From Chromatiaceae bacterium (GTDB taxonomy: Bacteria; Pseudomonadota; Gammaproteobacteria; Chromatiales; Chromatiaceae), in NCBI GenBank assembly GCA_024639005.1, contig JAHEJD010000008.1:1-64000 (forward strand): 64,000 nt of DNA, in the 5' to 3' direction. This document shows, one piece after another, positions 22,316-25,182 of the stretch (positions are counted from its first letter, which is position 1; every line of letters starts with the position of its first letter). The notes beneath the pieces were generated by a model. It was not told the origin of the DNA, ran no database searches, and was given only the letters and a program-made list of their open reading frames with translations. The translations under genes were made by a program, and so were the position numbers.

Positions 22316-22624
22316 ATGAAACGGAAGAAATACATTGGGATAGACAAAGATCCACTGGGAGCGATGAACACCACCGGCAACATTATTCGCGATGCCTGGC
22401 TGTTCGGATTGATCCCCGAGACCGAGACATGTGAAGGCTGGACGGTGCAGGGCGTCAATGCCCTGTACGAGAAGGTTACGCAGGAATGGGGTAAGTATGG
22501 TCACATGGTGTCCAATCTGCCGCCCGAGCTGACCTTGAGGCATCGGGAGATCTACGATGCGGCCATCGCCCGGGCGCGAGAACTCGGTTGGGATCCGGAT
22601 GCGGGTTTGGATGGCGATAGATGA
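22316..22624 (+). CDS. Conserved-looking hypothetical protein
   Basis: 102-aa ORF with coding-like composition in an otherwise unassigned interval. Confidence 0.65.
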   Translation: MKRKKYIGIDKDPLGAMNTTGNIIRDAWLFGLIPETETCEGWTVQGVNALYEKVTQEWGKYGHMVSNLPPELTLRHREIYDAAIARARELGWDPDAGLDGDR

Positions 22625-22645: not shown

Positions 22646-22867
22646 ATGGTCAGGATTGAGCGCGCCACCTTTTTTCGGCCGGATGAGATCGCTCGCGAGG
22701 ATATCCACGTTCTGGCTGCACTGTTCAATCGGTGCCGCCTGCTGTTTTCGCGCTCCGATTATGCACATGTCTTCGTGCCGGTCCGCACGATGCAGCTGCA
22801 GGCCGTGATCGATGCGCAATTGTGCCAGCCTGAGATGCTTGCGTGTCTTATCCACGCGCCGGGCTAA
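22646..22867 (+). CDS. Hypothetical protein
   Basis: 73-aa ORF MVRIERATFFRPDEIAREDIHVLAALFNRCRLLFSRSDYAHVFV... fills the gap between two co-oriented ORFs. Confidence 0.45.
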   Translation: MVRIERATFFRPDEIAREDIHVLAALFNRCRLLFSRSDYAHVFVPVRTMQLQAVIDAQLCQPEMLACLIHAPG

Positions 22868-22872
22868 AGGGC

Positions 22873-23565
22873 ATGAGGCCGGGCGCTTATTGGTTGCTCT
22901 TGTGGGCGTTGCTCACCCCAGGACCGCAGTGCGCGGCTGCCGAGACGACGCAAGGCAGCTGGCAGTTGCAGATCAGCGGACACCATAGTTTCGTCTTCGG
23001 CGAAACCGGCTTCGGCGGCGGCGTCCGCATACCCTGGGAGGTGGTGATCCAGTTTCAGGTTCGCGATGGCGACTATCTGCTCGGTAGCGGCAGCGCCCGT
23101 TGGCTGGATCGCGTGGAAGGACTCTCGAACCCGCCAGGCTGGTTCCGCTGTCGGCAGGTCGCCGGTACCTACCTCGACAGCAACCTGACGCTGCACCAGA
23201 CCCCGCGTGTACGCTTCGCCGCCTTCCCGGTCGGAGGTCGCCTGACGCAGGGGCGCGTCCGGCTGCAGCCGGGTTACCAGCCGCCGGGCAACTATCTGGC
23301 CGTCACCTACGAGTGCGTCGACGAAGGCGTCCGTGCGGAAAACTGGTTCGCACTCGCCGAACGGGGCAAGCAGGTGCTCGGCAAACGCCAGGATGTCGAG
23401 ACGAGGCGTGACCCCGAGCGGCAGGTGGCACGGGTGAGGGAGGTCGCCGCGTTGCCCCCGGAGAGGAGCATTGAACTGCCGCTGGAGGATGGCTGGACTT
23501 TCTCTCAGGGGGGCGCGGACGACGGCAGCGCGGTCAGCTTTCGGCTGCAGCGCCTGGATGACTGA
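22873..23565 (+). CDS. Hypothetical secreted protein
   Basis: Signal peptide MRPGAYWLLLWALLTPGPQCAAAE; start at internal ATG. Confidence 0.7.
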   Translation: MRPGAYWLLLWALLTPGPQCAAAETTQGSWQLQISGHHSFVFGETGFGGGVRIPWEVVIQFQVRDGDYLLGSGSARWLDRVEGLSNPPGWFRCRQVAGTYLDSNLTLHQTPRVRFAAFPVGGRLTQGRVRLQPGYQPPGNYLAVTYECVDEGVRAENWFALAERGKQVLGKRQDVETRRDPERQVARVREVAALPPERSIELPLEDGWTFSQGGADDGSAVSFRLQRLDD

Positions 23566-24130
23566 ATGCATGTCTCGCCAGGCGTTCGACGAGATAGAGT
23601 ATCGGTCCAGGTGAGTCGTGCCTGACCACCCGACATTGATGGCCGCGTTGCGCCAGCCACGCATCTAGCGCGGCAACCTCGGCGCCGCCGCCGGGGTGCC
23701 CGCGATAGGCCAGCAATGAGATCAGACCACCAGCGCGCAGAATGGACAGCGCCTGACTCAGCGCGAGTACCGTCGTCTCCGGGCGTGTGACCAGTGACTT
23801 GTCGAATCCTGGCAGATAACCCAGGTTGAACATCACCGCCGCAACCTTGCCCGGCCAGTCGACCGGCAGCGCAGCGACCATGTGTTCATGCCCGCATAGG
23901 CGCAGACTAACCCGGTGCACAAGCCCGGCGCCCGCCAGACGTGCCTGAGCCTGTCGCAGCGCGGTGGCTTGGACGTCGAAACCCATCACCTGACCCTCAG
24001 TGCCGACCTGTTGCGCCAGAAAAAGCAGATCGTGACCATTGCCGACCGTGGCATCGATCGCCAGATCGCCGGCCTGCACTATGCCGGAGAGGGCCTGTTG
24101 GGCCACGCCGGTGAGCGGCCGATTCCTCAT
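23534..24130 (-). CDS. mnmM: Class I SAM methyltransferase, MnmM/YtqB (PF06962-like) family
   Basis: AIDATVGNGHDLLFLAQQVG, VMFNLGYLPGFDKSLVTRPETTVLALSQAL, LAYRGHPGG: hallmark motifs of the YtqB/MnmM family. Confidence 0.85.
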   Translation of the reverse strand: MRNRPLTGVAQQALSGIVQAGDLAIDATVGNGHDLLFLAQQVGTEGQVMGFDVQATALRQAQARLAGAGLVHRVSLRLCGHEHMVAALPVDWPGKVAAVMFNLGYLPGFDKSLVTRPETTVLALSQALSILRAGGLISLLAYRGHPGGGAEVAALDAWLAQRGHQCRVVRHDSPGPILYLVERLARHAFSHPGAAAES

Positions 24131-25182
24131 CTGCAGCGTCGGATGTCCGCCTCGGCGGGCAGGGGTGCCGCGCGAATCAGATGATCGGCGAGACACCGGG
24201 TATACCAAGGTATGGTCAGCGCACCCCGCGCACCGAAGCCGTTGCAGACCCAGAGGCACGGGAATTGCGGGTGTCGGCCGAGCAGCGGATAGCGATCGCG
24301 CGTGGCGGGGCGCAGGCCGGCCTGATGCGCGACCACCCGGAATTGTGCCCCCGGCAGCAGCCTCTCCAGCCCGCGCAACAGCTCCTGCTTGCCGCCGCTG
24401 GTGGGTTTGTCATCGATTAACTTGTGGTCGTGTGTGGCGCCGAGGCGGATCTCACCGTTCGTAAGCGGCACCAGCCAATGGGCTCCGTTGACAATGTAAC
24501 CGAGCCGCCGGTCCGCGATCTGCAGATTCAGTATCTCGCCCTTGACCGGCGCCAACGGCAGCCAGTCGAACCAAGGATTGAGGCGCACTCGCGCACCGTC
24601 GCAGAAGACCAACCGGTCCGCGCGCAGGCCGGCCGCTGCCACCCCATCCGCGGTGGGCTCAATCTCCCGATAATCGAGGGTGTGCTCGTGGAGGGCGCCG
24701 TGATGCGTCAGCCAACGACGCAGATGGTGCAGCAACTGTGGCATATCGACATACCCGGTGCGGTGCTGGACAAAACCGCCGTAGGGTGACGAGACGGGTT
24801 CCGGACACTGGTCGCTGTCGAAGCGCTCCCCGAGCAGATCGCGATTGGCCGGATCCTCAGAAACGCGGTTGTAGAAGCGTTGCTGCCCAGGGGATCGGAA
24901 TAGGCGCAGCATAGGGCAGGTGTGCAGCAAACGTCGTTGTAGGCGATGCTGTAAATCCGCATACCAGCGATCCGAGAGGCCCAGCCAGTCGTCCAGTTGT
25001 GGCCTGCGGCTGTAGCGCATCCCGGCCAACGGATTGATGAGACCCGCGGCAACGCGGGAAGAGGCAGTTAAATGCCCGTCGTCTATTACGCAAACCTGCT
25101 GGCCGGCCTCGATAAGTTGCCAGGCCAGGGCGCTGCCGGCGAGCCCCTGGCCCAGGATCAGGGTGTCGAAACGCTGCGACAT
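24127..25182 (-). CDS. FAD-dependent oxidoreductase (DAO family, MnmC(o)/MnmL-like candidate)
   Basis: N-terminal GxGxxG FAD site TLILGQGLAGSALAWQLIEAGQQVCVID; DAO C-terminus GLRPATRDRYPLLGRHPQFPCLWVCNGFGARGALTIP; 4-bp overlap with the downstream methyltransferase. Confidence 0.85.
   Translation of the reverse strand: MSQRFDTLILGQGLAGSALAWQLIEAGQQVCVIDDGHLTASSRVAAGLINPLAGMRYSRRPQLDDWLGLSDRWYADLQHRLQRRLLHTCPMLRLFRSPGQQRFYNRVSEDPANRDLLGERFDSDQCPEPVSSPYGGFVQHRTGYVDMPQLLHHLRRWLTHHGALHEHTLDYREIEPTADGVAAAGLRADRLVFCDGARVRLNPWFDWLPLAPVKGEILNLQIADRRLGYIVNGAHWLVPLTNGEIRLGATHDHKLIDDKPTSGGKQELLRGLERLLPGAQFRVVAHQAGLRPATRDRYPLLGRHPQFPCLWVCNGFGARGALTIPWYTRCLADHLIRAAPLPAEADIRRCR

Follow-up and report, generated by a model that had tools for sequence, protein, structure and literature searches.

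Described routes to mnm5U34

The bifunctional MnmC of E. coli carries a methyltransferase domain, MnmC2, at its N-terminus and an FAD domain, MnmC1, at its C-terminus, and performs the same two reactions that are proposed below for a pair of separate genes in a Chromatiaceae bacterium. The chemistry needed for cmnm5U is that of enzymes oxidising glycine or N-substituted glycines (PMC3648344). MnmEG is also able to add the aminomethyl group directly, using ammonium (PMC3936742). The paper reporting the discovery of MnmM sought an FAD oxidoreductase as its partner and found none, and the MnmC(o)-like enzyme of organisms with MnmM was there called unknown (PMC9976899). A later review lists MnmL.

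MnmL, since put forward for Gram-positives, reportedly belongs to the YtqA radical-SAM group and forms, with MnmM, the MnmL-MnmM pathway of Gram-positives that Jaroch et al. are said to have described in 2024; the abstract of the main 2024 paper on MnmL and MnmM is also said to mention fusion proteins. In the literature that we searched, from which that main paper stood apart, we found no description of an FAD partner of MnmM or of fusions between the two, and priority for the pair and for the fusions is uncertain. We read the overlapping genes described here as a two-enzyme finish of mnm5(s2)U34 in tRNA that replaces the bifunctional MnmC, and give this reading a probability of roughly 0.84.

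The gene pair, its surroundings and its host

The window, by which we mean the whole 64,000-nucleotide stretch analysed, encodes on its minus strand a DAO-family FAD oxidoreductase of 351 amino acids (24127..25182, read from 25182 to 24127), a proposed cmnm5(s2)U34-tRNA oxidase with MnmC1-like function but of a separate subfamily, and, downstream of it, an MnmM methyltransferase of 198 amino acids (23534..24130, read from 24130 to 23534), a proposed nm5(s2)U34-tRNA N-methyltransferase. The genes share 4 bp, ATGA (24127..24130), in which the methyltransferase ATG at 24130-24128 lies over the oxidoreductase TGA at 24129-24127, an arrangement that suggests translational coupling. The original prediction had placed both reading frames and their overlap just here, leaving out only the detail that they lie on the minus strand, and its family calls are borne out by HMM comparison (118 bits to PF06962 for the methyltransferase, 136 bits to PF01266 for the oxidoreductase). 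An earlier start for the methyltransferase, a GTG at 24259, is mechanically possible, but the ATG at 24130 is where the alignment with its relatives begins.

The pair is flanked on one side by genes for a PlsC-type acyltransferase and dxs and on the other by a histidine phosphatase gene. Between the histidine phosphatase and MnmM lie two plus-strand ORFs (22316-22624 and 22843-23565) without a Pfam match, the second of which has a signal-peptide-like start and converges on the 3' end of MnmM with an overlap of about 30 bp.

The host's assembly, of 3.2 Mb and 96% completeness, whose closest named relatives are metagenome assemblies of Chromatiales/Chromatiaceae, encodes both MnmE (307.6 bits, cut-off 252.6) and MnmG (894.9 bits, cut-off 524.85), the two enzymes whose presence the original prediction had asked about. 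It had also allowed that a fused MnmC elsewhere in the genome would speak against it; neither PF05430, the MnmC methyltransferase domain, nor a TIGR01212 protein of the YtqA/MnmL family was found in the host genome, with positive E. coli controls for both, so the proposal is unrefuted on this point. At 96% completeness there is a small chance that an absent gene sits in an assembly gap. Among 210 genomes searched in the host's order there was no strong PF05430 match; two weak ones were seen.

The methyltransferase

The methyltransferase scores 170.2 bits against the NCBIfam MnmM equivalog NF053511, passing the cut-off of 135, and matches the solved B. subtilis YtqB/MnmM chains. The B. subtilis enzyme is nearly inactive when D34, N101, Y104, K110, Y141 or H144 is mutated, and K11 is also reported (PMC9976899). 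Equivalents of the first six are present here as D34, N102, Y105, K111, Y142 and H145, and K11 is the exception, being Gln in our protein. Across 24 relatives the Asp, the Asn, both Tyr and the His are invariant, and K111 is sometimes His. Methylation of nm5(s2)U34 by MnmM has been established by others for homologs and is predicted by analogy for this copy. The original prediction had treated MnmM as a Gram-positive enzyme; it is indeed known from that group, but is not restricted to it, since 44 of the 210 genomes in the order of our Chromatiales-type host have it.

The oxidoreductase

The oxidoreductase has as its top NCBIfam match the ThiO model TIGR02352 (118.6 bits, below the cut-off of 250.8) and scores 101.1 bits against the MnmC1 model TIGR03197, again below cut-off (174.2). 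In a maximum-likelihood tree of 58 rows, 40 of them relatives of the oxidoreductase, all 40 group together as a single clade with 100/100 support and a long stem, separate from MnmC1 (99/99), ThiO (99/95), SolA, PuuB and DadA, none of which is singled out as its sister. The grouping with unrelated amino-acid oxidases that would have told against the original prediction is accordingly absent, the clade standing apart from ThiO, SolA, PuuB and DadA. By sequence the protein is best assigned to a separate DAO subfamily, orthologous neither to MnmC1 nor to ThiO; we reject an ordinary identity as either enzyme on cut-offs, tree and motifs together. The plasmid records that we searched gave no match to it.

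There are nevertheless many resemblances to the FAD half of MnmC. Profile alignment with MnmC1 extends over 334 columns (E 5.7e-28), and the conserved MnmC1 residues S304, G518, R567, G578 and G619 are all matched, by S42, G248, R291, G302 and G320, respectively. R291 is invariant in 100 relatives of the oxidoreductase; its aligned counterpart is R567 in E. coli MnmC and, in glycine oxidase, the Arg that binds the substrate carboxylate. A G-[SA]-[RK]-G loop and a GLAG motif are present as in MnmC1 and not as in ThiO (100 relatives, with four ThiO sequences compared). This profile match and these shared motifs would also be expected of a true MnmC1, that is, of a split MnmC whose function would be the one proposed here. 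There is a very slim chance of this, given a score of 101 bits where TIGR03197 asks for 174 and given the tree, in which MnmC1, including the naturally split L188, and the oxidoreductase group are separate clades (99/99 and 100/100). L188 is a gammaproteobacterial MnmC divided into separate methyltransferase and FAD ORFs. The term split replacement for MnmC, used in the original prediction, therefore holds for the two-protein route, which is supported, but not for the oxidoreductase itself, whose separate clade marks it as no split-off MnmC1 domain.

The fold of the AlphaFold model (mean pLDDT 95.6) most resembles those of glycine oxidase, iminodiacetate oxidase, sarcosine oxidase and MnmC, all of which act oxidatively on glycine or N-substituted glycines, as cmnm5U would require. 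With ThiO the protein has in common the fold, the FAD site and the carboxylate-binding Arg; it differs in its score below the ThiO cut-off, its separate clade, its altered substrate loop and the Trp that replaces, in 95 of 100 relatives, a Tyr that ThiO and MnmC1 share. The iminodiacetate oxidase IdaA (6pxs), which has one of the closest folds, takes an N-substituted glycine as its substrate, although this is a small molecule and the identity of the enzyme to our protein is about 23%. Taken from sequence and model, the active site is predicted to be of the N-substituted-glycine type.

In the PDB the protein is matched best by glycine oxidases, in sequence as in fold, and this brings in another reading, in which the protein would be a ThiO-type glycine oxidase serving thiazole (thiamine) synthesis and its adjacency to MnmM would be incidental. 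The top NCBIfam match, though far below cut-off, is in keeping with this, as are the nearness in Chromatiales of dxs, whose product also feeds thiazole synthesis, and the fact that we saw no other full-length ThiO-like DAO protein in the host genome. It is hard to reconcile with a clade that leaves ThiO outside, with the replacement of the R-N-G loop of ThiO by the MnmC1-type G-[SA]-[RK]-G and with the change of the substrate-pocket Tyr to Trp; the dxs proximity, moreover, is confined to Chromatiales, and the link to MnmM persists both as fusions and as co-occurrence of unlinked genes, as described in the next section. We regard the thiazole reading as improbable.

Conservation, co-occurrence and fusion

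The survey of gene neighbourhoods suggested in the original prediction finds adjacency of the two genes beyond chance and kept in several orders. Among 80 named loci with relatives of the oxidoreductase from other species, MnmM is on the same strand in 61 and immediately downstream in 56, with a spacing of about -38 to +96 bp; three of the loci without an immediate MnmM hold almost no downstream DNA. MnmM likewise follows on the same strand in 15 of 17 loci of a class-wide sample, and in 19 of 29 loci of a Mariprofundaceae-like family, in which six more are fused. The two stand side by side in Chromatiales, Methylococcales, Nitrosomonas, Cycloclasticus and Mariprofundaceae. Judging the identity of gene clusters from their sequences, we find no real gene other than MnmM common to the loci across the surveyed orders; proximity to dxs is local to Chromatiales and proximity to smpB to Methylococcales.

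In the 210 genomes of the host's order, 44 have MnmM over the cut-off and 42 the oxidoreductase, with both in 39, MnmM only in 5, the oxidoreductase only in 3 and neither in 163 (Fisher p about 3e-33). Such p-values ignore relatedness, and counts by genus or family are safer; by genus, the order has 11 with both genes, 1 and 1 with a single gene and 48 with neither. In the 163 genomes with neither, the modification may end at cmnm5U or be completed by an enzyme not yet recognised. In the class-wide sample of 274 genomes, MnmM is found in 22 and the oxidoreductase in 20, with both in 19 (spread over 12 families), MnmM only in 3, the oxidoreductase only in 1 and neither in 251; of the 63 class-wide genomes that match PF05430 strongly, none carries MnmM or the oxidoreductase.

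The association outlasts linkage in genus g52, where the two genes lie on different stretches and most genomes keep both. There MnmM stays with a histidine phosphatase and the oxidoreductase, in L087, the locus examined, with dxs and the acyltransferase; as the split halves retain the neighbours that flank the pair in the window, the arrangement in the window appears to be the unsplit one.

In six Mariprofundaceae-like genomes (L215, L216, L221, L223, L224 and L238) a single unbroken ORF of 554-583 codons (about 560 amino acids) encodes both domains, the oxidoreductase first and MnmM second. The MnmM half was over the NCBIfam cut-off in all three fusions tested, and a named Mariprofundaceae copy of the oxidoreductase falls among the rows of the fusion family in the tree. 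In the same tree L238 is separated from the other five, and its fusion may have arisen independently. Gene fusion is strong evidence that the oxidoreductase and MnmM act in one pathway.

Genomes with one gene only

MnmM occurs without the oxidoreductase in G068, G100, G102, G363 and G473; the last two (L189 and L190) are genomes of one family, f155, with no recognisable oxidoreductase. Since MnmEG can make nm5U directly with ammonium, MnmM without an oxidase in a few genomes is understandable. These same genomes, with the direct aminomethyl addition described in PMC3936742, are also what favours a reading in which MnmM here uses nm5U that MnmEG has made directly with ammonium, and the target of the oxidoreductase is some other substrate or tRNA modification. 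The fusions and the strong co-occurrence point instead to sequential steps, and an active site of the N-substituted-glycine type, if correctly predicted, would also fit poorly, and we consider this reading very unlikely.

The converse cases, the oxidase without MnmM, are not accounted for by our proposal. They comprise G243 (L162), a complete single-contig gammaproteobacterial genome with neither MnmM nor a PF05430 match, together with four loci from Bacteroidia and some from Methylobacter whose surroundings, to about 4 kb, hold no MnmM. In the tree, the Bacteroidia copies (L134, L138, L142 and L160), which have no MnmM nearby, nest beside Methylobacter oxidoreductases, a position suggesting that they were acquired by lateral transfer. 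Their partner might be the stand-alone MnmC2 of Bacteroidota; within 4 kb of them no MnmC2-type (PF05430) gene was found using the E. coli query alone, which a diverged copy could escape. Gaps in the assembly explain some of the apparent exceptions; in G209, for example, the contig stops upstream of MnmM.

The proposed pathway

In the pathway that we propose, MnmE-MnmG would place a carboxymethylaminomethyl group (from glycine) or an aminomethyl group (from ammonium) on U34. The FAD enzyme, by glycine-oxidase chemistry, would oxidise the N-CH2-COO- arm of cmnm5U34 to an imine whose hydrolysis would leave nm5U34, and MnmM, with SAM, would convert this to mnm5U34. MnmC would thus be replaced by a methyltransferase unrelated to MnmC2 together with an oxidoreductase from a different DAO subfamily. 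The idea of a two-protein mnm5(s2)U route in a gammaproteobacterium gains support from the presence of MnmE and MnmG, the fusions and the co-occurrence; the link to the substrate, like the activity of the oxidoreductase, is one that we infer from sequence and structural model. Pointing the other way are the slightly higher score against ThiO than against MnmC1, the Tyr-to-Trp change, the single-gene genomes and the Gln in place of K11.

Compared with E. coli MnmC, the FAD half has the same fold, the G-[SA]-[RK]-G loop and the correspondences S304/S42, G518/G248, R567/R291 and G619/G320, whereas the methyltransferase is MnmM rather than a PF05430 protein, the FAD enzyme belongs to a separate clade, and there are two genes here and, in the Mariprofundaceae-like fusion, the opposite domain order. 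The MnmL-MnmM pathway of Gram-positives has the same MnmM second step, but the first step would here fall to an FAD oxidoreductase, in a host genome without a TIGR01212 member.

It is fairly likely that the pair forms a third route from cmnm5U to mnm5U, put together independently of the others, in which an undescribed DAO subfamily gives MnmM its MnmC1 activity across Gammaproteobacteria and Mariprofundaceae, and that the Mariprofundaceae-like fusions have converged on the bifunctional design of MnmC, with a methyltransferase unrelated to that of MnmC and with the domains in the opposite order. A specific FAD enzyme whose ties to MnmM show in operon structure, co-occurrence and fusion is a candidate for the missing first step in these Gram-negatives. 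If this is true, the same bifunctional tRNA enzyme would have arisen twice, from different methyltransferases.
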